A stretch of 64,000 nt of DNA, taken from NCBI RefSeq assembly GCF_000374125.1, contig NZ_KB893626.1, positions 572,679 to 636,678 of the forward strand, read 5' to 3'. Of the stretch, positions 338 to 11,904 are shown piece after piece. Under the pieces are notes generated by a model, which worked only from the letters and a program-made list of their open reading frames with translations, was not told the origin of the DNA and did not search any database. The DNA is from Niabella aurantiaca DSM 17617 (GTDB taxonomy: Bacteria > Bacteroidota > Bacteroidia > Chitinophagales > Chitinophagaceae). Made by a program: the position numbers and the translations under genes. Numbering within the stretch: position 1 is the stretch's first letter; every line of letters begins with the position of its first letter.

Positions 338-1066
338 TCAGGTATAGAGCCCGCCGTTAATGGAAAGTACCTGCCCCGTAATATAAGCGGCTTCCCGGGT
401 AGCAAAGAAACCCACGGCATGTGCCACTTCCTCCGGTGTCCCAAAGCGGTTGGCAGGAATGAGCTGTTTCATCTGGCCTTCATCAATATCTTCCGTCATG
501 TCGGTTTTTATAAAGCCTGGCGCCACTGCGTTTACCGTAATATTGCGTTTGCCTGCTTCCTGTGCCAGGGCTTTGGTTGCCGCAATTACGCCGCCTTTTG
601 CAGCCGAATAGTTGGTCTGGCCGGCCAAACCTTTTAACCCGGAGAGCGAAACCACATTAATGATGCGGCCATAGCGCTGGCGCAGCATGCTGTTCACCAC
701 CAGCCGGGTCACATTGAAGAAACCGCCGAGGCTGGTGTTCAGTACGCCGTCCCATTGTTCATCTTTCATCCACATCAGCAATACATCGTCTTTGATGCCG
801 GCATTGTTTACCAGCACTTCAATTATTTTGTCCGGGTTGGCTTCCATCCAGCCCCCGAGCGTTTGCTGCACCGCATCCCGGTTTGCCACGTCAAAAGCCA
901 GCAATTCGCCGCTGACGCCGGCTTTTTCTACTTCAGCCAGCGTTGCCGCTGCTTTTTCTTTATTGCCTTTATAGTTGATCAGTATATGAAAACCCTGGCG
1001 GGCCAGCTGTATGCAAATCGCTTTTCCGATGCCGCGGGATCCTCCGGTTACCAATGCCCAGTTCAT
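338..1066 (-). CDS. fabG: 3-oxoacyl-ACP reductase (FabG-type SDR), flexirubin locus
   Basis: Classical short-chain dehydrogenase/reductase of 242 residues, the normal FabG length. Visible motifs are the NAD(P)-binding TGGSRGIG at 7-14, NNAG at 87-90, and the catalytic Ser140, Tyr153 and Lys157 (YSAAK). The C-terminus ITGQVLSINGG is typical of FabG. It reduces a beta-ketoacyl-ACP to the beta-hydroxyacyl form with NADPH in the cytoplasm. It lies directly downstream of the ammonia-lyase and the PaaK-like ligase on the same strand. FabG copies in this setting serve polyene elongation in flexirubin clusters, so I infer that role instead of housekeeping fatty acid synthesis. Confidence 0.85.
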   Translation of the reverse strand: MNWALVTGGSRGIGKAICIQLARQGFHILINYKGNKEKAAATLAEVEKAGVSGELLAFDVANRDAVQQTLGGWMEANPDKIIEVLVNNAGIKDDVLLMWMKDEQWDGVLNTSLGGFFNVTRLVVNSMLRQRYGRIINVVSLSGLKGLAGQTNYSAAKGGVIAATKALAQEAGKRNITVNAVAPGFIKTDMTEDIDEGQMKQLIPANRFGTPEEVAHAVGFFATREAAYITGQVLSINGGLYT

Positions 1067-1135
1067 ATATTAAAGTTTAAGGTTTGAAATTCCAGGTCTG
1101 AGGTTAACATCAAACAATAGACCTCAAATTGTAAA
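1067..1135. repeat. Low-complexity 'word' repeat in gap between fabG and ammonia-lyase
   Basis: The 69-bp gap is made of reiterated short words (TTTAAGGTTTGAAATT, CAGGTCTGAGG, AGACCTCAAATT). The same vocabulary fills other gaps in the window (18585-18672, 30040-30126) and resembles a stretch inside purH. I see no hairpin terminator or promoter in it. Confidence 0.5.
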
Positions 1136-2671
1136 TTAAAATGGCTGATGTGCTTTCATAAAATCGCGCACTTTGGCCAGGTCTTTATAAAGCGGGTAGT
1201 CCTTGCTGAATTTAGGAAACACGTTTCGCAACCGGTTATAGACGGCCATTGTCTTTGAAGCCATCTGGTCATGACGGTTCAGGTAATCAACTGCCTGCAG
1301 CAGCGTCATTGCCTGTATGGCCAGTACCTCATACGCATTTTCGATCACTTTCCTGGCGAGCTGTGCTGCATTGAAGCCCATGCTTACAATATCCTGGTTA
1401 TCGTTATTGTTGGGAATGCTGTGCACATACATCGGAAAAGAAAGCGTCTGGTTTTCTGCAGTAGTGGAAGTGGCAGTAAACTGGATGCCCTGCATGCCAA
1501 AGTTCAGCCCCAGCACGCCATGATTGACAAAAGGCGGGAACTTCTGGTTCAGCCGTGCATTCAGCAGGTAATTCAGTTGCCGTTCGCTCAGCATGGTCAG
1601 CTTGGTAATAGCGATTTTCATTTTGTCCATTTCGAAAGACACGTAGTCGCCATGAAAATTACCGCCATGAAAGATGTTATGACTGGCTACGTCCACCACC
1701 GGGTTGTCGTTCACTGAATTGAGCTCGTTCACTACGGTCTCTTCCGTATGTGCCAGGGTATCATATACCGGACCCAGCACCTGTGTAATGCACCGGAGTG
1801 AGTAATATTCCTGCACCTTGTCTTCAAATACATCGTGCTGGATATTCTCCGGATTGTATAAATGTTCGGACCGGCTGCGGATGAGTTTACTGTCTTCCAG
1901 TATGGCGCGCATCTGGCGGGCAATATGCTGCTGACCGGTATGATGTTTTACAATATTCAGCTCATGGGAATAGTGGTCGTCATAAACTTCCATGAGCTCA
2001 TTGGTGATGGCCGAAAGCATGATCGACCAGTTCAGCAATTGTTGCGCCTGCAACAGGTTCAGCAGTCCGGTGCCGGTCATGGCCGATGTGCCGTTGATCA
2101 GAGCCAGCCCTTCGCGTACCTGCACTTTCAGCGGCTGCAGTCCTGCTTTTTGAAATGCATCGCCGGCCGGTTGCACGGTACCTTCGTACCATACCTCTCC
2201 TTCGCCGATGATCCCAAGCGCCAGGTGCGCCAGCTGCACCAGATCGCCGCTGGCCCCTACACCACCGTGCTCGTAAATGCAGGGGATGAGGTCGTTATTG
2301 ATCATGGCTGCCAGCAGTTGCGGCAGGACGGGGTCAATGCCGGAATAGCCCTGCATTAAGTTGTTGAGCCTTGCCAGCATTACTGCCTTGCTTTGCAGGG
2401 GGCGAAGCACCTGGCCGCCGCCGCTGCTATGACTGCGGATCAGGTTGTACTGCAATTCTAAAATATTTCCATCGCTGATCTTGTACTGTGCCATGGGCCC
2501 AAAGCCCGTATTGATGCCATAGATCAGTTTATGACTGGAAAATTGTTTCAGAAATTCAAAACTGGTGTTTACCTGCTGTAAGGCAGCTTCGTCAAGCGTA
2601 ATAGGTTGGCTGTCAATTATAATTGCATTAAAATCCTGCAATGAAAGCCGTTTTCCCCCTACTTTGATCAT
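1136..2671 (-). CDS. Aromatic amino acid ammonia-lyase (HAL/TAL family), probable flexirubin tyrosine ammonia-lyase
   Basis: 511 residues, the usual length of bacterial histidine/tyrosine ammonia-lyases. The MIO cofactor triad Ala140-Ser141-Gly142 lies in GGVGASGDLVQLAH, and the catalytic Tyr51 in YGINTGFG. The selectivity loop reads LIRSHSSGGG (Ser80-His81), as in histidine lyases. The downstream active-site stretch, however, reads NNDNQDIVSMG, with the NQD pattern seen in phenylalanine/tyrosine lyases. Substrate cannot be settled from sequence alone. The neighbours (PaaK-like ligase upstream, FabG downstream) match flexirubin clusters, where this enzyme deaminates tyrosine to 4-coumarate as the polyene starter. 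I therefore favour TAL over HutH; no other hut gene is nearby. Confidence 0.8.
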   Translation of the reverse strand: MIKVGGKRLSLQDFNAIIIDSQPITLDEAALQQVNTSFEFLKQFSSHKLIYGINTGFGPMAQYKISDGNILELQYNLIRSHSSGGGQVLRPLQSKAVMLARLNNLMQGYSGIDPVLPQLLAAMINNDLIPCIYEHGGVGASGDLVQLAHLALGIIGEGEVWYEGTVQPAGDAFQKAGLQPLKVQVREGLALINGTSAMTGTGLLNLLQAQQLLNWSIMLSAITNELMEVYDDHYSHELNIVKHHTGQQHIARQMRAILEDSKLIRSRSEHLYNPENIQHDVFEDKVQEYYSLRCITQVLGPVYDTLAHTEETVVNELNSVNDNPVVDVASHNIFHGGNFHGDYVSFEMDKMKIAITKLTMLSERQLNYLLNARLNQKFPPFVNHGVLGLNFGMQGIQFTATSTTAENQTLSFPMYVHSIPNNNDNQDIVSMGFNAAQLARKVIENAYEVLAIQAMTLLQAVDYLNRHDQMASKTMAVYNRLRNVFPKFSKDYPLYKDLAKVRDFMKAHQPF

Positions 2672-2752
2672 TTTTGTATGCGTAATTTATTAAACAAGGC
2701 GCAAAAAAACGAAATATATCACTGGAATCAAAAAATTTGTTAGGGGGAGGGC

Positions 2753-4048
2753 TTACAGACGTTTGTCTATAAATTTAACAGGCTTACGGGCTCCATCCGG
2801 AAATTGCAGGCGCTGCATCTCTTCCCGGGTAAGGTATTTGATATGGGGCATTACCCGCAAACGGGCCTGCAAGTAGGTTTTTATCTTGCCATCGGTTTCC
2901 TCGGAGGTATTGGCGGGCAATAGATACAGGAGCACTTCATCGGTCCCGATCTCGTTGCTGTACACTTCCGCCACATATTCTTTAATGGCATCTATTTTAT
3001 GAATGATCTCAAAAAGGGCGGGCGCAAACAGGGTGGTGCCCTTGAACTTGATCATTTGCTTTTTACGGCCGATCACAGGTGAAAGGCGGGTTGTATGCCG
3101 CCCGCAGGTACAGGGCTCATAAAAGGCACGGCAGAGATCACCGGTCTTGTAACGCAGCAGGGGCATGCCTTCCACACCAAGCGTCGTAATGGTCACTTCG
3201 CCGATCTCACCGGAGGGTACGGGCCGGCCCTGGTCGTCGATAAGCTCCAGGATCACCAGTTCCGGGTTCTGATGGCCTCCTTTACCAGCGGAACATTCGG
3301 TAAACGCGGTTTGCATTTCGGTTGAAGCATACGTTGAATAAAGTTGTATATTCCAGTGCTCCGTGATCCTGCTGCCCAGAATGTTCAGGCTGAGATCTTC
3401 TTTACGCAGATTCTCACCGATACAGATCGCTTTTTTTACGGAGGACCCGTTCAGGTCGATACCGTTTTCCAGCGCATACTGGATCAGCTTTACGATAAAA
3501 GAAGGAACGGCTACGATGGCGTTGGGTTTCAACCGTTCAATGACCTCCCATTGCAGGGATGGTACTCCAGGGCCTACGCGTACCTGGCCGGCGCCCAGCT
3601 TGCGGATGCCGAGATAATAGGCAATCCCTGCCATGAATTGCCGGTCGAGAGTCAGCATCAGTTGATAAATATCGGAAGCGCTGCCACCTGCACAGGCAAA
3701 TGAGCTGTACTCGTTGTAAGCCAGCCGTTGCAGATCGTTCTCGGTAAGCGCAATGGTTACCGGGCTGCCCACCGTACCGGAAGTAGCCATATATTCAACA
3801 ACCTGGTGCTGTGGTACACAAACGAAGTCCTTATTATGCAATTGCAGGTGCTCCTTTTCAGTAGGCGGGATGCGGACAAGGTCGTCAATATGCCGGATGG
3901 TATCCGGGTCGATCTTGTTTTCCCGGAACAAATTCCTGTAAAAAGGCGAGTGGATCTTAAGATACTGCATCAGGTTCACCAGTTTTTGTTCCTGGTAGGC
4001 CCTGATCTGCGCTGCCGGCTGAAAGGATAGGGATGGTAACTCGTTCAT
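2753..4048 (-). CDS. PaaK-like adenylate-forming ligase (probable aryl starter ligase for flexirubin)
   Basis: 431 residues, the length of phenylacetate-CoA ligases. Signatures are the P-loop TSGTVGSP at 89-96, YASTEM at 240-245, RYKTGD at 299-304, GRKKQMIKFKG at 327-337 and a conserved C-terminal lysine region (KPVKFIDKR). A CTCGR zinc-like pair lies near 313-317. The family activates an aromatic acid with ATP and transfers it to CoA or ACP. It is first in a same-strand run with the ammonia-lyase (81-bp gap) and FabG. The most likely job is activation of 4-coumarate made by the lyase. Start chosen at 4048, where an ATG directly precedes the conserved N-terminus. Confidence 0.78.
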   Translation of the reverse strand: MNELPSLSFQPAAQIRAYQEQKLVNLMQYLKIHSPFYRNLFRENKIDPDTIRHIDDLVRIPPTEKEHLQLHNKDFVCVPQHQVVEYMATSGTVGSPVTIALTENDLQRLAYNEYSSFACAGGSASDIYQLMLTLDRQFMAGIAYYLGIRKLGAGQVRVGPGVPSLQWEVIERLKPNAIVAVPSFIVKLIQYALENGIDLNGSSVKKAICIGENLRKEDLSLNILGSRITEHWNIQLYSTYASTEMQTAFTECSAGKGGHQNPELVILELIDDQGRPVPSGEIGEVTITTLGVEGMPLLRYKTGDLCRAFYEPCTCGRHTTRLSPVIGRKKQMIKFKGTTLFAPALFEIIHKIDAIKEYVAEVYSNEIGTDEVLLYLLPANTSEETDGKIKTYLQARLRVMPHIKYLTREEMQRLQFPDGARKPVKFIDKRL

Positions 4049-4253: not shown

Positions 4254-4517
4254 CTACCAGGCAATCATGGCTTTTACCGGGGCAACGCCGGATTTTAGGG
4301 TGATCCTGTATAACCCGGCATTGGTATGCGAGAGCTTAAAAACAAATCTCCCGGAGGCACTTTTCCGGTTTTGTACAAAGCCCTCCTGGGGTTTTGCTTC
4401 AAATGCATATGCTCCTGTTGCCCCCTGAAGGGTAACGACGATCTGGTTGCTAAAAGTGGTGGCCTCAATGGTCGTAACGGCACCTATATTATTAAATGTA
4501 AAGGTTTTTGTGGGCAT
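4254..4517 (-). CDS. Small beta-rich hypothetical protein
   Basis: 87 residues, rich in Thr, Val and Ala with alternating hydrophobics, suggesting a small beta-sandwich. There is no signal peptide, cysteine or recognised domain. It begins 110 bp after the stop of the secreted beta-helix protein on the same strand. I do not recognise the family. Regular amphipathic strands and an even codon pattern favour a real gene, but a frame opened by chance is possible. Confidence 0.5.
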   Translation of the reverse strand: MPTKTFTFNNIGAVTTIEATTFSNQIVVTLQGATGAYAFEAKPQEGFVQNRKSASGRFVFKLSHTNAGLYRITLKSGVAPVKAMIAW

Positions 4518-4627: not shown

Positions 4628-6532
4628 CTACTCCTGCGTGACCTGCACGATTTTGCTATAGGCTGTTTTCCCATCTTGATCTGTCTGCGCAATACGCAGA
4701 TAGACCCTGGCATTGTATCCGTCAACAGGTGTATCCTTTTTAGAACAGCCATAGATCAGCGCACCAACGATGAAAACGGCCGGCACCCATCTCCATTTCC
4801 GCCTGCGGGCCGAAAAGCCCAGGCAAAGGATGGCAAGTCCGGCAATGCCGCCGGACAGCGCTGTGGCTCTGTCTATGGTATAGTTATAGTGCAACCCCTT
4901 GGTGCTATTGCCATCTGGCGCTTTCGACTTTACCGTAGCCAGCGGCTTAAATTCTTTTCCGTCGGCGGAGATCTCTATATCAAAGTGGTCGTTATTGATT
5001 TCTGTTTCGGTGGTCCAGGTCACCTGTAAAACATTGTTGCGTATCAGTGCTACAACATTGCCGAAGGTAACAGGCAACACAGCGCTGTTGGCTTCATACG
5101 CGCCCATATCAATAATACTGTTTGCAATGCGGCTATAGCCGGCGAGGTCCGCATTGCCATAAATACCGCTGTTGTATAAAGTATTGTCGCCGGTATTCAT
5201 TGCAGGGCTTGCGGCCTGCAAGGTAAAGTCGCCTGCCGCGGGGTTATTGAATAACGGGTCACTGGTGAAGGCGTTTTGAGCAGTAACGATGATTGCCGGC
5301 GGATAGGTGGCGGAATAGATTGAATTGGTAAATGTTATCGCAGGTGATCCGCTCCCGGCAGTCATTACATCGGTGTTGGCAGCCCGGGTCCAGAAAATAC
5401 TGTTCTCGCTCGTATTTGCGGTGTTTGCGTTTATGTGTAAAACCGCGCCCTGTGCATTAAAAAGGGTACTGCTAATGAGATGAGCGGTGCCGGCGGCGTT
5501 ATACAGTACCGGAACATTTTCTGTTCCCGAATAATAAACCAGGCTGTTTACCAGTGTAAGGGTCGGCCCAGGTTTGCTGTTGCCCGTCCGGAGGCTTATG
5601 GCAGATCCCTTGTAAACGGCCTGGGTACTTGCTTTGTTGACGGTATTGTTGGCGAACACCGTATTGGTTATGCGCAACTGCCCCTCACCAAAGGCGTCGG
5701 CACCGCCTCCGGTGGCACCCTGGCTTTGCGAGGCGTTATCTACGATATTGCCGTTAAAGGCACAGTGGGAAATTGCAGTGTTATAAACACCCGGCACGCC
5801 ATAGTAAGCAGCATCCAGTTGCATGATGCTCAGACCACCGCCGGCATAGCTCGCCCGGTTATCCTGGAAAGTACAGTTGAAAACCTGGAATATATTGGAT
5901 GCTGTGCTAATGCCATAATAGGCAATGGCTCCCCCTCCCTGGTATGCATAATTGTTTTTAAAAATACAGTTTTGGATGGCCGGCGTAATATTTTGCGACA
6001 TGCCACTGCAGGAAATAAAAAGGGCTCCGCCTGCGTATTGCGGATGAAAATCGCCGGTAACGCCTCCTTTATTGGCATTCCCGTTAATGAATGTAAATCC
6101 GTCGATGAGGGTCGTATTATCGATGGCCGGCGGATTGGCTGTTGACGTATCCAGTTCGATGATCATGGTATGAAAGGCGATGTTTCTGCCGTCTAACGTG
6201 GTGGTGTTTGCTGCTATATTGCGTTGGCTCTGGTTCGTTTCATTACCGCTGAAACCCCCATAAAGTTTCAGGTTATTCCTGTTTATATAAAAACTTGAAT
6301 CGCGGTTGCTGGTGCTTGCCGGTGCATATATGCCTTTGGCTACCCATATCTGGGTAATGGATGGGTTGGTTTGTGCTGTTTTTAATGCAATGCTGAGATT
6401 TTGATAGGCATCCGTCCAGGAGCTGCCGTTATTGGCGCCTGTGGCCGCGGCATCTACGTACAGTGTCTGGGCGTTCAGCATGGATGCAGATAAGATAAAA
6501 GACAGGGCAAACGTTAATTTTAGCTTTTTCAT
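4628..6532 (-). CDS. Secreted right-handed beta-helix protein (choice-of-anchor Q type) with C-terminal transmembrane hairpin
   Basis: 634 residues. A signal peptide (about 1-21, ending LNAQ) is followed by a polymorphic-outer-membrane-like beta-helix. In it, short turns such as GGALFIS, GGGAIAYYG and GGGLSI alternate with strand residues (about 25-470). The motif PAMNTGDN...AGYSRIANSIIDMGAYE marks the end of the helix domain. A fibronectin-like sorting-type domain follows (VTWTTETEINNDHFDIEIS...). It is interrupted by two hydrophobic segments around an RRRKWRW cluster and then resumes with RVYLRIAQTDQDGKTAYSKIVQV. Function is probably surface adhesion or glycan binding. Direct repeats with an 11-bp period lie about 150 bp upstream (6659-6697). 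Confidence 0.7.
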   Translation of the reverse strand: MKKLKLTFALSFILSASMLNAQTLYVDAAATGANNGSSWTDAYQNLSIALKTAQTNPSITQIWVAKGIYAPASTSNRDSSFYINRNNLKLYGGFSGNETNQSQRNIAANTTTLDGRNIAFHTMIIELDTSTANPPAIDNTTLIDGFTFINGNANKGGVTGDFHPQYAGGALFISCSGMSQNITPAIQNCIFKNNYAYQGGGAIAYYGISTASNIFQVFNCTFQDNRASYAGGGLSIMQLDAAYYGVPGVYNTAISHCAFNGNIVDNASQSQGATGGGADAFGEGQLRITNTVFANNTVNKASTQAVYKGSAISLRTGNSKPGPTLTLVNSLVYYSGTENVPVLYNAAGTAHLISSTLFNAQGAVLHINANTANTSENSIFWTRAANTDVMTAGSGSPAITFTNSIYSATYPPAIIVTAQNAFTSDPLFNNPAAGDFTLQAASPAMNTGDNTLYNSGIYGNADLAGYSRIANSIIDMGAYEANSAVLPVTFGNVVALIRNNVLQVTWTTETEINNDHFDIEISADGKEFKPLATVKSKAPDGNSTKGLHYNYTIDRATALSGGIAGLAILCLGFSARRRKWRWVPAVFIVGALIYGCSKKDTPVDGYNARVYLRIAQTDQDGKTAYSKIVQVTQE

Positions 6533-6658
6533 TTGTCGGGCTTTTTTGGTAACGATTGTTTGTTTTTGGATCAGGCAGCTTCTGTTTAAAGGGGTGGGCC
6601 TTATTGTCGTTGACGTTGTAAAGATGCCCTATCAAAACCGGCAACCCAAAATCCGGGC

Positions 6659-6697
6659 AGGACGAAACCGGGACGAGACGCGGACAAAATACGGACA
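6659..6697. promoter_or_regulatory. Four 11-bp direct repeats (GGAC core), candidate activator site
   Basis: Units with a GGAC core begin at 6659, 6670, 6681 and 6692, exactly 11 bp apart. The last two are perfect CGGACA separated by AAATA. The array lies about 130-160 bp upstream of the beta-helix gene. Two similar CGGACA pairs occur at 6957 and 9616, next to the TPR regulator genes. One helical turn of spacing suggests cooperative binding on one DNA face; the binding protein is an inference. Confidence 0.45.
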
Positions 6698-6720
6698 CGC
6701 TGGCGGGCATACCTTAAAGA

Positions 6721-6748
6721 AAAGACAGCTGCATGCGCGGCTGTCTTT
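6721..6748 (-). terminator. Hairpin terminator after the 35-residue gene
   Basis: Arms AAAGACAGC (6721-6729) and GCTGTCTTT (6740-6748) form a perfect 9-bp stem with a 10-nt loop. T-rich flanks follow on both sides, so it may act in both directions. It lies 42 bp past the stop of the small ORF at 6791-6898 and supports that ORF being a separate transcript. Confidence 0.6.
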
Positions 6749-6790
6749 TTAAAGCATTGGTTACTGATTGCGACCCCTTATGGTCAGGAA

Positions 6791-6898
6791 TTAGAACGGA
6801 TGGATCCTGCGCTCATAATAGATCCAGACTGAAAGTATCAGAATGAGCGCTATCAGAAGGATAAAGAGGGTAACATATACATGTTTCTTGCGTTTCAT
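6791..6898 (-). CDS. Very short single-pass membrane protein (35 residues)
   Basis: ATG at 6898 and TAA at 6791-6793 encode a 35-residue peptide. It has a basic start (MKRKKH), a 20-residue hydrophobic helix (about 7-26) and a charged tail (YYERRIHPF). The basic-in layout predicts one membrane-spanning helix. A terminator hairpin follows at 6721-6748, and a CGGACA direct-repeat pair lies about 60 bp upstream (6957-6973). I do not recognise a family. It could be a regulatory micropeptide of the neighbouring TPR regulator. Chance occurrence cannot be excluded at this length. Confidence 0.5.
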   Translation of the reverse strand: MKRKKHVYVTLFILLIALILILSVWIYYERRIHPF

Positions 6899-6956
6899 GA
6901 TACAGAAAAGTACATTTAAAAGTAGGGCAAATCCTGGTTTCAGCGGAAATTTTGCG

Positions 6957-6973
6957 CGGACAAAAAGCGGACA
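6957..6973. promoter_or_regulatory. CGGACA direct-repeat pair, 11-bp period
   Basis: CGGACA at 6957-6962 and 6968-6973 with spacer AAAAG. It sits between the stop of the first TPR regulator gene and the start of the 35-residue membrane protein, where an upstream activator site would be. Confidence 0.45.
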
Positions 6974-6984
6974 AGTATTTTTGC

Positions 6985-8733
6985 TCAGGAACCTGTGTCG
7001 AGTGTGGCAATTTCCTCCTCCATGAGCTGGTCGGATGCAAGGTTCAGGCTGGTGCGCAGGCGGCGTTTACTGCGGGCCACACTGTCTTTACTGATGCCGA
7101 GGGTGTTTGCAATCTGGTAATTGGTCAGTTTCAGGAATATCAGCGCTGCCAGCCGCTCCATTGCAGGGGTAAGGTTTTCCATACGCTGGCGCAGGTTATT
7201 AAAAAAAGCGGGATAGGCTTTGGAGAATTCGTTCCGGAACTGCTCCCACCCGTCTTCCGTCAGCAGCGGGTTTGCTAACAGGTGTTCGGATAGCTCCGCC
7301 CCTGTATCCCGGATATGGGTTAAACGCTGTTGCAATATTTCGATCAGCTCATTCTTTTCAATGATGCTGTTGGTGAAAATGGTGATCTTTTCACGCGCCT
7401 CCTGAATGTCTTTTCTTGCTGCCGCATGTTTGAGTTCGACAACACGCAGCTTGTATAGCTCCCTGACCCTTTTGCGGTTATACAGCAGCAAGGTGATGAT
7501 GGTAAGCAGGACGATACCGGCCAAAACGGCATTGCGGATGCTTTTTTCCCTGTTGGCTACCGATTGCGCCAGGATGAGGGAGTGCTGCAGGTTGTCGAAG
7601 GCGATACGGGCACTAACGACGGACAATTCGCTCTTTTTGACACTGTCCCGCATAATATCTTTATAGGTGTCTGACAGCTCATGGTAGTGGAATGCGCTGT
7701 CTGTCTGGCCGGTTCGCCTGTAAATGGCGCTCATATGATCCGAAGCGCTGATAAGTTGCGCATAGATGTTGTGATGCCGGGCAATGCTCCAGGCCTCCCG
7801 GGCGGCGAGCAGCGCTGGCCCGTATTTGTTTTGGCGGTAATAGAAAGTAGCAAAGGCGTTCTGGGCCATAGCAATATTGAGTGAATCCGGAAATGCCCGG
7901 CTGCTTTGCAAATATTCTGTAAGCAGCGGCAGCGCTTCTGAAAAACGGGCTTCTTCTGTATAGGTTCGCCCGATATTCCCGTTGGCAATCCCCCGCCAGA
8001 GCCGGGCCATCCGCAGATCGGTTTTGTGTTCCAGGGCCTGGAGTATGAGGTTGTAATACCGCCGGGTACTGTCAAACCGGTTCAGCTTCCTGTAAGCGGC
8101 ACCCAGGATATCACATTGGAAGATATATACCCAGGGATCCCGGTGCATACTGTCCAGGCTCCATTTTTTCAGGCACTGGCTGCCATAGGCAATGGATTGT
8201 ATATAGTCGCCCTGCGCATAAAGAACAGAGCTGACGCCAAAAAAGCGGTTCTGAACATACGGGAAGTGCTCAAATCCGATCCTGTTCTGTATTTCAATGG
8301 CCTTCAGGTTATAAAGCAGATGGGTGGCCGTAGCTGGCGGCATATCTGCCCGGATGCTGTACAGCTCGGCATTCAGCTGATCGTCCTTTAACGGGTACGC
8401 CATCTTTATGGCCTCATCGATGGTATCATAGTACCGCTCTTCATAATTGTATTCCCGGGCCGCCATGATCTCAAACATCAATAACCGCACGTCCAGCCTC
8501 CTGTCCGGATGTTGTTCTAAGTAGCTGTGCAAGCGGGTAATATCGTTCAGAAATTTATTTTTATAGGTGTTATCCGTTTTATGAAGCAACAGCGAGTCAA
8601 AGAAGGCCTGTGAACGGTAGCTCTGGGTCCGGTCAGATACTTTCCAGGCATTCAGGTAAGGCGTTATTTCCGCATCCTGGGATAGGGAGGCAGTACTGAA
8701 TAGAAGGCACCAAAGGAAACATATCAATTTCAC
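6985..8733 (-). CDS. Membrane-anchored TPR sensor/transcription regulator with LuxR-like C-terminal HTH
   Basis: 582 residues. A signal peptide (1-18) leads a periplasmic all-helical region of TPR-like repeats (about 100-380), then one transmembrane helix (400-418) followed by KRVR, a cytoplasmic coiled coil (about 425-475) and a helix-turn-helix at 536-561 (NYQIANTLGISKDSVARSKRRLR). This architecture is common in Bacteroidota, where a periplasmic sensing part is joined through the membrane to a DNA-binding domain. Ligand and targets are unknown. It is about 40% identical by eye to the paralog at 9646-11376, most strongly in the HTH and in the YPLKDDQLNAEL and FQCDILGA blocks. A CGGACA repeat pair follows the gene at 6957-6973. 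Confidence 0.75.
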   Translation of the reverse strand: MKLICFLWCLLFSTASLSQDAEITPYLNAWKVSDRTQSYRSQAFFDSLLLHKTDNTYKNKFLNDITRLHSYLEQHPDRRLDVRLLMFEIMAAREYNYEERYYDTIDEAIKMAYPLKDDQLNAELYSIRADMPPATATHLLYNLKAIEIQNRIGFEHFPYVQNRFFGVSSVLYAQGDYIQSIAYGSQCLKKWSLDSMHRDPWVYIFQCDILGAAYRKLNRFDSTRRYYNLILQALEHKTDLRMARLWRGIANGNIGRTYTEEARFSEALPLLTEYLQSSRAFPDSLNIAMAQNAFATFYYRQNKYGPALLAAREAWSIARHHNIYAQLISASDHMSAIYRRTGQTDSAFHYHELSDTYKDIMRDSVKKSELSVVSARIAFDNLQHSLILAQSVANREKSIRNAVLAGIVLLTIITLLLYNRKRVRELYKLRVVELKHAAARKDIQEAREKITIFTNSIIEKNELIEILQQRLTHIRDTGAELSEHLLANPLLTEDGWEQFRNEFSKAYPAFFNNLRQRMENLTPAMERLAALIFLKLTNYQIANTLGISKDSVARSKRRLRTSLNLASDQLMEEEIATLDTGS

Positions 8734-9015
8734 CGCAAAAAAGTTGGCGCTGTAAATATAACGGATTTGAAAGAGCTTCGGAATGGGACATTTTTTGAGA
8801 TACCGGGCCCATGCAATGGATGAAGGCTATGGATCCTTTCAGGACGATGGAAGGGCTGGTATTGAAACCGGCAGAAGTAAAAACAACACCGGGACTATTC
8901 CAAGAGAAAAAAATTACAGCGGCATCCGGCCGGATGCTATGCCACAGCGGTGAAACGATCCTGTTAATGCGCGGTCTTTGCTGTTCAGATTACCGGTAAT
9001 ACACCTGTTGTGGCC

Positions 9016-9465
9016 CTATGCATCGCGTCTTTTGAATTTCTTTAAGAAGGTAATATTACCATCGGCATCAACGTTTATTTTATACATATTTCTTGCATCG
9101 TTTACGACGATGATATAGTTGGTTGTGTGGGCAGTCATTACTTCTGTTACGCCAAAGATTTGTTTTTCCCCGAGCTTCTTTTTTATATCGAATAATAAAT
9201 TAGGCGGCAAATTCTTTTCCCCGTAATAACGTATGGTCTGTAAAAGACTGCCGTTTGTTTTGTCTAACATCGCCCGGTAAAGGATATGATCCTTTTTGAA
9301 GACGGCAATAATATAGTCGGGGGCTTCTATCCAGGAAACCTGGCCCGCATCTTTAAATATTACGTTGAAGGTGTTCAGTACTTTTTCATTGATGACAGGG
9401 GCAGGTTTGTTGGCAACAACATGAATGCTCAAAGCAGTTGCTACAAAGATGAGGAGGAGTTTCAT
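9016..9465 (-). CDS. Small secreted protein, PepSY-like/beta-lactamase-inhibitor-like
   Basis: 149 residues with a signal peptide (1-18, ending VVAN). The mature part alternates strands and helices (FNVIFKDAGQVSWIEAPDYIIAVFKKDHILYRAMLDKTNGSLLQTIRYY, then INVDADGNITFLKKFKR). This recalls the small periplasmic PepSY-like domains of Bacteroidota, but no catalytic motif is visible. It lies downstream of the 576-residue TPR regulator on the same strand, with a 180-bp gap carrying a CGGACA-type repeat pair. I infer that the regulator controls it. Function is unknown. Confidence 0.6.
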   Translation of the reverse strand: MKLLLIFVATALSIHVVANKPAPVINEKVLNTFNVIFKDAGQVSWIEAPDYIIAVFKKDHILYRAMLDKTNGSLLQTIRYYGEKNLPPNLLFDIKKKLGEKQIFGVTEVMTAHTTNYIIVVNDARNMYKINVDADGNITFLKKFKRRDA

Positions 9466-9615
9466 TTTATATTTTTTAAGCGTACAATAATCAGTTAATT
9501 TTTTTACAGAAACAGGCAGACAGGGAGCGCCTGAAGCAGCGCATTTGTAACAGCAGCTAATTTGTTCTGTTACCTAAAGTTGCTTTGAAAAAGGAATGGT
9601 TTACAAAAAAATAGC

Positions 9616-9632
9616 GAGACAAAAACCGGACA
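9616..9632. promoter_or_regulatory. GAGACA/CGGACA direct-repeat pair, 11-bp period
   Basis: GAGACA at 9616-9621 and CGGACA at 9627-9632 with spacer AAAAC. Spacing and A-rich spacer match the pairs at 6681-6697 and 6957-6973. It lies about 150 bp upstream of the secreted protein gene that starts at 9465, the same distance as the site upstream of the beta-helix gene. Confidence 0.4.
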
Positions 9633-9645
9633 ATGACATAACTAA

Positions 9646-11376
9646 TTACAAGTCAAACAAATATGATTCGAGTGTTTTTTCATGTGTCAGGTAAAGAAGA
9701 TTGCGTAACCGGTGTTTGCTGCGGGTTACGCTGTCCTTGCTGATGCCCAGGGTATTGGCGATCTGGTAATTATTGAGCCCTAAAAAGATAAGCGCGGCCA
9801 ATCGTTCCATAGCCGGGGTAATATTTGGGGCGTTCTGGTGCATTCGTAAGAAAAAGTGAGGAAAGGCTTTTGTAAACTCTCCGCGGAATTTTTCCCATTC
9901 GGTTTCGGTGATAATGGCATTGCTGAGCAGTTGGTTTTTTAGTTCAGCCGGTGGTGTTTCCCATTTATTATGGGTTTCCAGGCCCTGGATGAGGTTGTTT
10001 TTTTCAACAATAAGCTGGGTAAAGAACCGGATGCGCTCTCTTGCCTGATCTATTTCCGCCTGTGCATTTTGGTAGTCGGATGCTATTTTTTCCAGCTTGG
10101 CCCGGTCTTTTATTCTTTTTCGGTTGTACAGCAGCCCTGTGATAACGAGGAGCAGACTGATACTTGTTAAAATAAGTTGTTGCTTTTGTCGCTGTTGAAG
10201 GGCTACAGATTGCGAAATGGCCAGTGAGTGCTGCAGGTTGTCAAATGCCAGCTGCGCCTGTATTACAGAAAACGCTCCCTTTTTGTTCAGCTCCCGGAGG
10301 GAATCCTGGTATGAGTGGTAAAGATCATTATAATAAAACGCCTCACTGATATTATTGCGACGGCGATGAATAAGGCTGATGTATTGTGCCGCGTCCCTTA
10401 ATTGAGGAAACAGGGAATCATTGAAAGCCGTATCATATGCCTGCCTGGCCGCCCGCAACGCTCTGGTGTAATGACCCTGCCGCAAATAATAATCTGCAAA
10501 GGCGTTCCGGGCCATAGCGATATTCAAACGGTCGTGCAGCTGATAGGCTGCCCGCAGGTAATTTTCCAGAAGGGGCAGCGCGAGGGCATATTTGCCCTCG
10601 CGTGTATAGGTCTGCCCGATATTCCCTTTGGCAATGCCGCTCCATAAGGTACTGTCCAGGTTGGTCATTTTAGGACGGCGCATTTGGAGGATCTTCTGAT
10701 AATATGCTCTTGCACTGTCGAACTGGTTCAGGTTTTTAAAGGAGGCTCCCAGGATATCGCATTGAAAAATATAATGGTCCGGAAGTAACAGGCTTCCGGA
10801 AGCATAATAGAGGGCCAGGAATTGCATGCCATAGTCAATGGCTTTCCTGTAGTCGCCCAGGTCGTAAAGACAGCGGCTTACTTCATAATACGGGACATAC
10901 CCATAGGGGAAATACCGGATACCAATTTTTTTCTCCAGTTCAATACCCTTGAGATTATAGAACAGCCGGGTATCCGGAGAAAGGGGGTGACTTCCCCGCA
11001 GCAGGTAGAGCTCTGCATTCAACTGATCATCTTTTAAGGGGTAGGCAAGGTTAATGGCTTCGTCGAAAAAATCGGGCTTAAAACTGGAATCGATCCTTAT
11101 ATGAAATTCGTAGATCATTAAACGTACCTTTAGCCGTGGGGCCGGATGGTTCTGAACATATTGCTTTAACTGACCTATTTCCTTATAATAGGCCTGTTTT
11201 TGTCCGGGAGTGATCGCATGTTCAAAAAAATAATCAACAAGCTCCCTGCATTTCCTGGTTTGGCTGTGGTCTGTGGTTTTCCAGGCCTCCAGAATGAGCT
11301 TGGTGCCCCTGGTTTGGGAATCCGCTGTAAAAGCCAGCGGGATCATGAACAGGAAAAAAGGGAGCAGCTGCTTCAA
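9646..11376 (-). CDS. Membrane-anchored TPR sensor/transcription regulator with LuxR-like HTH (paralog)
   Basis: 576 residues with the same layout as its neighbour at 6985-8733: signal peptide (1-20), TPR-like periplasmic region (about 100-385), one membrane helix (400-417), coiled coil and HTH at 533-559 (NYQIANTLGISKDSVTRSKHRLR). The near-identical recognition helices (SKDSVARSKRRLR versus SKDSVTRSKHRLR) predict overlapping DNA targets. The periplasmic parts diverge more, which suggests different signals. The tandem arrangement with a small secreted gene after each regulator suggests that the regulator-target unit was duplicated. Confidence 0.75.
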   Translation of the reverse strand: MKQLLPFFLFMIPLAFTADSQTRGTKLILEAWKTTDHSQTRKCRELVDYFFEHAITPGQKQAYYKEIGQLKQYVQNHPAPRLKVRLMIYEFHIRIDSSFKPDFFDEAINLAYPLKDDQLNAELYLLRGSHPLSPDTRLFYNLKGIELEKKIGIRYFPYGYVPYYEVSRCLYDLGDYRKAIDYGMQFLALYYASGSLLLPDHYIFQCDILGASFKNLNQFDSARAYYQKILQMRRPKMTNLDSTLWSGIAKGNIGQTYTREGKYALALPLLENYLRAAYQLHDRLNIAMARNAFADYYLRQGHYTRALRAARQAYDTAFNDSLFPQLRDAAQYISLIHRRRNNISEAFYYNDLYHSYQDSLRELNKKGAFSVIQAQLAFDNLQHSLAISQSVALQQRQKQQLILTSISLLLVITGLLYNRKRIKDRAKLEKIASDYQNAQAEIDQARERIRFFTQLIVEKNNLIQGLETHNKWETPPAELKNQLLSNAIITETEWEKFRGEFTKAFPHFFLRMHQNAPNITPAMERLAALIFLGLNNYQIANTLGISKDSVTRSKHRLRNLLYLTHEKTLESYLFDL

Positions 11377-11529: not shown

Positions 11530-11904
11530 TTACTGTTCAATCACCACCACCGCGGCAGCAATGGTCTTTAGATGGCTCAGGGAAAGCTGAATTTTTTTCA
11601 GGTCCAGGTGCCGCAGGGTTTCGGCGGTTTGCCCTTTCAGGGAAATGACGGGTTTGCCTTGTTCATCTCCCAGGATCAGGATCTCGTTGTAGGCTGTGCC
11701 CCCGGCCCAGCCGGTTCCCAATGCTTTGAAAAAAGCTTCTTTGGCGGCAAATCGGGCGGCATAGTGTTCATATTTATGCGCCTTGGGCTCGCAATAATCA
11801 ATTTCTTCGGAAGAAAAGACCAATTCCCGGAAGCCCTGTTCCTTTTGGATCTTTTCTGTTACGCGCTCCGTCTCTATTACATCAAGTCCAAGTCCGGTGA
11901 TCAT
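11530..11904 (-). CDS. acpS: Holo-[acyl-carrier-protein] synthase
   Basis: 124 residues, typical AcpS. It transfers 4'-phosphopantetheine from CoA to the conserved serine of ACP, needing Mg2+. Asp8 (GLDVIE) and Glu56 in RFAAKEAFFKA are the metal ligands, and Lys60 follows in the same helix. The C-terminal LSLSHLKTIAAAVVVIE is the usual last strand. It starts the run of core genes that continues with yidD, rnpA and rpmH on the same strand. Besides fatty acid synthesis it may activate carrier proteins of the flexirubin pathway. Confidence 0.93.
   Translation of the reverse strand: MITGLGLDVIETERVTEKIQKEQGFRELVFSSEEIDYCEPKAHKYEHYAARFAAKEAFFKALGTGWAGGTAYNEILILGDEQGKPVISLKGQTAETLRHLDLKKIQLSLSHLKTIAAAVVVIEQ

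Follow-up and report, generated by a model that had tools for sequence, protein, structure and literature searches.

Regulators and repeat arrays at the locus

The window analyzed here, a 64,000-nucleotide stretch of Niabella aurantiaca DSM 17617 (contig NZ_KB893626.1; coordinates are counted from window position 1), carries on its minus strand two paralogous regulators, 45% identical, that combine tetratricopeptide repeats (TPR), a transmembrane (TM) segment and a helix-turn-helix (HTH) domain, together with three short arrays of direct repeats (Table 1). The arrays lie where a first-pass annotation of the sequence had placed them, with four GGAC units at 6659-6697, two at 6957-6973 and two (AGAC/GGAC) at 9616-9632, all in exact 11-bp steps. 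Read on the minus strand, which is also the gene strand, the units are of the TGTCCG type, often with a T-rich spacer. The same annotation had each array followed by a minus-strand gene, and this holds: a beta-helix protein lies after array C, a 35-amino-acid (aa) TM peptide after array B and a secreted 149-aa protein after array A. Its estimate that two arrays lie about 150 bp upstream of a start codon is roughly right, the distances by its coordinates being 127, 59 and 151 bp for arrays C, B and A. Array C is located past the peptide gene, about 290 bp from regulator 1, and array A, which has a counterpart at locus L047, is weaker than arrays B and C.

Table 1. Features of the regulator cassette. 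Promoter offsets are counted from the last array unit.
Feature	Coordinates	Strand	Description
Regulator 1	6985..8733	(-)	signal-like N-terminus, TPR superhelix, TM, coiled coil, predicted NarL/LuxR-type HTH; recognition helix KDSVARSKRRLR
Regulator 2, paralog	9646..11376	(-)	recognition helix KDSVTRSKHRLR
Array A	9611..9632	(-)	two 11-bp units, sense TGTCCGGTTTT TGTCTCGCTAT; 13 bases after stop codon of regulator 2
Array A, -33 TTTG	9604..9607	(-)	+14
Array A, -7 element	9575..9582	(-)	CAACTTTA; +39
Array A, predicted target	9016..9465	(-)	secreted 149-aa protein; no Pfam or NCBIfam match; counterpart in L057
Array B	6952..6973	(-)	two 11-bp units, sense TGTCCGCTTTT TGTCCGCGCAA; 11 bases after stop codon of regulator 1
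Array B, -7 element	6917..6924	(-)	TACTTTTA; +38; -33 position reads TTCC
Array B, predicted target	6791..6898	(-)	35-aa single-TM micropeptide gene
Array C	6654..6697	(-)	four 11-bp units, sense TGTCCGTATTT TGTCCGCGTCT CGTCCCGGTTT CGTCCTGCCCG
Array C, -33 TTTG	6647..6650	(-)	+14
Array C, -7 element	6619..6626	(-)	CATCTTTA; +38
Array C, predicted target	4628..6532	(-)	secreted beta-helix-like surface protein, 634 aa; choice_anch_Q above cut-off, DUF5123 below
Hairpin	6719..6751		A/T arms, terminator-like; between micropeptide gene and array C; by eye

The pattern GGACA-N6-GGACA, with at most one mismatch, has seven matches in the window, four of them inside the arrays, compared with 2.2 on average and at most 5 in 100 shuffles. 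A genome-wide search, which the first-pass annotation had suggested, did not find the repeats randomly distributed: the strict 17-bp pattern CGGACAAAANNCGGACA is matched exactly at two places in the 5.93-Mb genome, both of them at this locus, and array A matches it only at two mismatches. At up to two mismatches the genome holds 22 matches, compared with 26 for the reversed control, so there is no genome-wide excess of the strict pattern beyond the locus, and we rejected a genome-wide regulon in this genome on these counts. The sole one-mismatch site elsewhere (L003) overlaps, by eye, the apparent start of a reverse gene, and no regulator of the TPR-TM-HTH family was found on the 12.8-kb contig (C16, L064) that carries a four-unit-like site.

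Within the genus, regulator 1 was found in 9 of the 16 relatives searched (45-71% identity; three of the nine are frameshifted or in pieces), and two further relatives have only a distant relative (27%). Arrays B and C are both kept in all nine orthologs, the distal array C with three or four units. What stands downstream differs; for instance, a PI-PLC-X protein in L055, and its look-alike in L056, occupies the place of the beta-helix protein. Downstream of a third paralog in the N. aurantiaca genome (27% identical) the array is a different one, with TGACAGG at 11 bp, and after it come a one-TM open reading frame (ORF) and a beta-helix-like gene. At L069, which belongs to another genus, TGTCCG units are irregularly spaced. 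Frameshifts interrupt regulator 1 and the beta-helix gene in three genus assemblies (L033, L034, L036; L061-L063), in which both arrays are intact; these frameshifts represent either decay or assembly errors.

Pfam identifies TPRs in both regulators, with TPR_12 in regulator 1, whose TM segment is placed by hydropathy at about residues 399-417. Its structural model (mean pLDDT 85.4, pTM 0.63) comprises a TPR superhelix, one long helix at 343-469 and a C-terminal HTH bundle. The Pfam GerE scores of the two regulators, 15.4 and 13.8 bits, fall under the cut-off of 23.5. The HTH matches StyR (7.3e-06) and NarL (0.0024) by profile (A2), and in Foldseek its model reaches a probability of 1.00 to StyR, DosR and NarL, with no E-value at or below 0.001. 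Structural alignment with VIA-align gives Z 9.3 for DosR (rmsd 1.8 over 66 residues) and Z 7.9 for NarL (rmsd 2.1 over 65), although Z values of 8-9 are not decisive for a small helical domain and may reflect a common helical arrangement. By profile and predicted fold we assign the domain to the NarL/LuxR type, despite the GerE score below cut-off. In Pfam, neither window regulator has a match at E <=0.1 to a NOD or NB-ARC domain, nor to an OmpR-type DNA-binding or BTA domain.

Genes on either side of the cassette (window 338-4048 and 11530-11904, minus strand) appear by eye to encode a FabG-type reductase, an aromatic amino acid ammonia-lyase, an AMP-ligase and a holo-ACP synthase, surroundings that we take to resemble a flexirubin-type pigment cluster. 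Between the AMP-ligase and the beta-helix gene lies an 87-aa ORF without a Pfam match (4254-4517, minus strand). The hairpin in Table 1 is absent from the list of the hairpin scan.

The 11-bp period, the promoter and the downstream genes across the family

The search was extended to two sets of related regulators. The first comprises 117 regulators, mostly of the window's family and including at least one (L043) from another family of the order, drawn partly from the matches listed (30 loci and 74 rows selected because they extend to the HTH end). The second comprises 89 regulators of other families, obtained with a C-terminal profile in 295 class genomes (30 loci and 60 chosen rows); proteins above 760 residues were excluded, and the 89 include one short ORF. 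The merged set holds 205 regulators. A match to the C-terminal profile occurs in 130 of the 295 class genomes drawn, a count that takes in longer proteins as well, of roughly 920-1,020 residues, which form a second class sharing the C-terminal HTH profile. Across the merged set, a TM-like hydropathy segment lies between the sensor and the DNA-binding domain in 201/205 regulators, and a hydrophobic N-terminal stretch is present in 200/205. From this stretch and the domain order, the sensor would lie outside and the HTH in the cytoplasm.

We scored 8-mers recurring, with at most one mismatch, at distance d within 150 bp downstream of each regulator. In the first set d=11 occurs after 35/117 regulators, followed by d=22 (30), d=33 (18) and d=12 (17), with every other distance at 14 or fewer. 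Similarly, in the second set d=11 occurs after 28/89, with other distances at 8 or fewer. With one regulator per 60%-identity cluster, d=11 is found in 19/61. Shuffling gives P <0.01 in 16 and P <=0.05 in 30 of the 117. Within 150 bp upstream there is no peak (first set counts are at most 9), and the coding sequence shows a 3-base period only. Autoregulation through an upstream array was considered and rejected: at this range d=11 is seen in 7/117 and 7/89, no more than other distances.

The signal is oriented, with TG-anchored 8-mer pairs at d=11 numbering 35 in sense and 4 in antisense. For TG-anchored 7-mers within 150 bp downstream, d=11 is found in 55/205 regulators, compared with 19 for d=12, 13 for d=21, 22 for d=22, 11 for d=23 and 0-8 for other distances from 8 to 23. 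Among non-regulator control genes of the same loci a TG-anchored d=11 pair follows 2/231, one of them apparently a real array. One of these two control matches, at L217, is a TGTCTACC pair at 11 bp after a non-regulator ORF (594-1292), possibly a distal site. At L039 (L066:4992-5006) a TGGACA-type 11-bp repeat lies upstream of the regulator, in the orientation opposite to the usual one.

The arrays stand at a fixed distance from promoter elements. The reported primary sigma factor consensus is TAnnTTTG at -7 with TTTG near -33, the latter part not being found in Flavobacterium johnsoniae according to the cited passages (PMC7366714). Counted from the last array unit, TTTG occurs at +43 in 17/55 sites and at +14 in 9/55, compared with a background of 0.47 per offset; with one regulator per cluster the counts are 14/47 and 8/47. 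A scan for sigma-70 -35/-10 promoters (7 found, 5.1 expected) was set aside as uninformative for this phylum.

The genes that follow tend to encode exported proteins. Taking the next same-strand ORF of at least 150 aa and a crude rule for an export-like N-terminus, we obtained 41/45 for regulators with arrays, 81/109 for those without and 57/116 for controls; the rule passes over the probable target in at least one locus (L047, target of 148 aa). Ten next-gene proteins were scanned for domains, revealing three TonB-dependent receptors and one each with PKD/SprB, Ig-like, type IX secretion system (T9SS) tail and PI-PLC-X matches; one further protein has matches below cut-off only, and two have no match.

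A small membrane protein also recurs downstream. A one-TM ORF of 26-80 aa lies within 420 bp downstream of 37/204 regulators, compared with 3/204 in antisense and 11/237 controls. At these 37 loci an array was detected in 21, a positive N-terminus in 32 and an aromatic pair near the TM end in 29. An aromatic/basic motif was also tried as a marker and dropped; it marks ORFs beside 17/204 regulators, 1/204 in antisense and 6/237 controls, so that the pattern is not specific by itself. For the 35-aa micropeptide of the window, six genus copies (one duplicate protein excluded) have pairwise differences that sum to 150, 84 and 241 at the first, second and third codon positions, respectively. This third-position excess, together with a sequence kept in the genus, supports the micropeptide as a real gene there.

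Repeat letters and the recognition helix

The letters of the repeat vary with the DNA-reading helix of the adjacent regulator. For instance, TGTCCG goes with RSK-type helices, TGACAGG or TGTCAGG with HKTR, TGTAACG with RxYK and related types, TGTAGAG with EMAR and TGTCTAC with KTAR. Helix residues are numbered here with the K of KDSVARSK as 0. Across 46 dereplicated regulators, 860 column-base tests were made, and the associations ranking second and third in strength link residue 5 to base 4 and residue 4 to base 6. At residue 5, K or R goes with C at base 4 in 17/18, M with A in 5/5 and V with T in 6/11; at residue 4, R goes with C at base 6 in 12/17. The associated helix columns align with the NarL recognition helix, in which K188, V189 and K192 contact bases.

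Pairs of regulators that are alike at residues 5 and 8 and less than 33% identical outside the helix have a repeat similarity of 0.48 (n=23) versus 0.27 (P 0.002); below 30% identity the similarity is 0.39 (n=16, P 0.036). These P values are uncorrected for multiple testing, seven residue pairs and four identity limits having been tried. A whole-helix Mantel test gave a weak signal (partial rho 0.11-0.16), below that of the non-helix part, and was replaced with tests of single residues and residue pairs.

A TGTCCG pair at 11 bp within 300 bp follows 11/16 regulators with RSK-type helices, including L249 of a distant family, versus 6/189 others, and most of these six are HKTR-like. We then examined a check set from a protein-motif search, which yielded 30 loci and 28 usable regulators, 7 already in the set and 21 new. 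The 11-bp TGTCCG pair follows 14/28 of them, compared with 0-3 at other distances, one upstream and none in antisense. Among the 21 new regulators it is found in 9 (other distances, 0-2), and these nine are distributed over Pedobacter (3), Niastella (2), Daejeonella, Emticicia, Siphonobacter and Arachidicoccus. By helix, the pair accompanies 9/17 new regulators with R-[SGA]-[KR] and 0/4 with other helices (L280, L288, L289, L290). At L267, L268 and L273, TGTCCG units stand at 10-bp steps beside regulators with the same helix type.

Proposed mechanism, alternatives and related systems

On the sequence evidence, we consider it quite probable that the 11-bp direct repeats are operators of the adjacent TPR-TM-HTH regulators and serve to activate the adjacent surface genes. 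The first-pass annotation had proposed a local regulon of this kind, and the proposal gains support from the retention of arrays B and C in all nine orthologs, the 11-bp signal downstream of many family members, the helix-linked letters, the recovery of the pair beside new regulators with the same helix and the fixed promoter distance. Our findings further support viewing the window regulon as one case of an arrangement that appears to recur beside related regulators in many Bacteroidota, its letters varying with the helix.

In the mechanism that we infer, which includes direct binding, activation rather than repression, the topology, an inducing signal and a role for the micropeptide, the regulator would be held in the inner membrane with its TPR sensor outside, followed by one TM helix, a coiled coil and a cytoplasmic NarL/LuxR-type HTH. 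On activation, several HTH domains would bind to one face of the DNA in head-to-tail order, each taking up one 11-bp turn. With the last unit stopping a short way upstream of -33, we propose that the bound array recruits RNA polymerase to a primary promoter of the Bacteroidota type (-7 TAnnTTTG). This promoter would drive the next gene, usually for an exported surface protein and in some loci with a one-TM micropeptide first.

Several observations weigh against this interpretation. NarL/LuxR domains usually bind inverted repeats as a symmetric dimer, whereas the sites here are head-to-tail direct repeats; inverted repeats were not the object of a separate search. A TG-anchored 11-bp pair within 150 bp downstream is lacking in 150/205 regulators, and both promoter elements are exact in only 3/55. 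When the upstream range is widened to 300 bp, d=11 shares the top count of 16 with d=12 in the first set; in the second set it ranks second at 14, behind d=9 with 18. The array of regulator 2, with TGTCTC as its second unit, is weaker and fails the TGTCCG rule. Similarly, 8 of the 17 new R-[SGA]-[KR] regulators lack an exact 11-bp TGTCCG pair: L268 and L273 have 10-bp steps, and L275, L281-L283 (all Bacteroidales), L287 and L292 have none, although the RSR helix of L292 would predict TGTCCG. The effect of residues 4 and 5 fades below 33% and 30% identity (P 0.17 and 0.60). Finally, the strongest pair by mutual information sits in the coiled coil, and similarity between repeats correlates better with the protein outside the helix (rho 0.31-0.37) than with identity over the whole helix (0.12-0.19); part of the letter-helix link thus reflects shared ancestry.

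Among the alternatives, the one that fares best is that regulators bound to the arrays keep the downstream genes repressed until an envelope signal releases them. A site just upstream of -33 is, taken alone, compatible with a repressor. However, the arrays stop short of -33 and leave -33/-7 and the start uncovered, their fixed distance and single DNA face mark the usual place of an activator, and 46/55 sites have no TTTG at +14 (-33), as is often the case in activator-dependent promoters. We therefore regard repression as unlikely.

A second alternative assigns the arrays to another factor, an OmpR/PhoB-type or SARP-like winged helix, with the TPR regulators as mere neighbors. The boxes of OmpR/PhoB proteins share a similar habit of 11-bp direct repeats. 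SARP activators likewise use direct repeats 11 or 22 bp apart beside promoters, as described in the cited passages (PMC10936776). Nevertheless, arrays follow 55/205 TPR-TM-HTH genes compared with 2/231 controls, and the repeat letters go with helix residues of these same regulators, which makes this explanation very improbable. That the repeats instead act in RNA, through attenuation or processing at the 3' end of the regulator transcript, can practically be dismissed: read-through transcription could reach many arrays, which lie within 10-100 bp of the stop codon of the regulator, but the helical spacing in the first set (11/22/33 bp), the fixed distance to promoter elements and the place of array C, past the micropeptide gene and away from the regulator, argue for a role in DNA.

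Operators of activation by the adjacent regulators would have parallels in known systems. MalT, a STAND activator, carries a LuxR-type HTH at its C-terminus, and its MalT boxes are directly repeated. In the cited passages it is described with a TPR-like (SUPR) sensor and cooperative multimer binding to the MalT boxes of its promoters (PMC4381067), features that would be shared here. In contrast, MalT has a nucleotide-binding NOD, whereas none was found in the window regulators, which have a TM segment and a uniform 11-bp period. The SARP activators AfsR and PimR of Streptomyces are alike in placing 11- or 22-bp direct repeats beside the promoter, comparable to d=11 in both of our sets and d=22 in the first. 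They bind as a side-by-side dimer and activate by contact with sigma region 4, and AfsR has a TPR domain, according to the passages of PMC10936776. They differ in carrying an OmpR-type domain and a BTA domain, compared with a NarL/LuxR-type HTH on a TM-containing protein here, and in a site that overlaps the -35/-10 spacer, 8 bp from -10, whereas our arrays lie upstream of -33. The window system would work like the SARP and MalT activators but is a member of neither group. MilO, of the LuxR family in the mildiomycin cluster, differs in that its units are 2 nt apart (13-bp steps) and 142 bp upstream of the start site; its source passages do not mention a membrane anchor, whereas the regulators here have a TM segment.

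The nearest named family is the BT3442 family of Bacteroides (NF053779), which scores 28-36 bits in the four regulators scanned, far below its cut-off of 940, the C-terminal part being the one that matches. BT_3442 is described with TPR motifs and in a putative operon with many predicted lipoproteins, and the passages of PMC2954219 that treat it describe neither an operator nor DNA binding for this family. Titles and abstract openings of the open-licence literature searched describe no operator for TPR-TM-HTH regulators.

A broader reading, which we offer tentatively and consider possible rather than probable, is that Bacteroidota have widespread self-contained switches for surface genes, each composed of a regulator, often a micropeptide, and an exported cargo, with 11-bp operators largely readable from the helix and a cargo that can be swapped. 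In such switches a dedicated one-TM micropeptide would act with the TM or sensor domain of the regulator in many loci, and the cargo would be exchanged between fixed operators, as in Niabella with PI-PLC-X for the beta-helix protein. TPR-TM-HTH proteins are common, and the literature reached describes no target for them. The repeats allow the promoters under some of these regulators to be named and their specificity to be predicted from a few helix residues, and they draw attention to a recurrent gene for a small membrane protein, which annotation tends to overlook.

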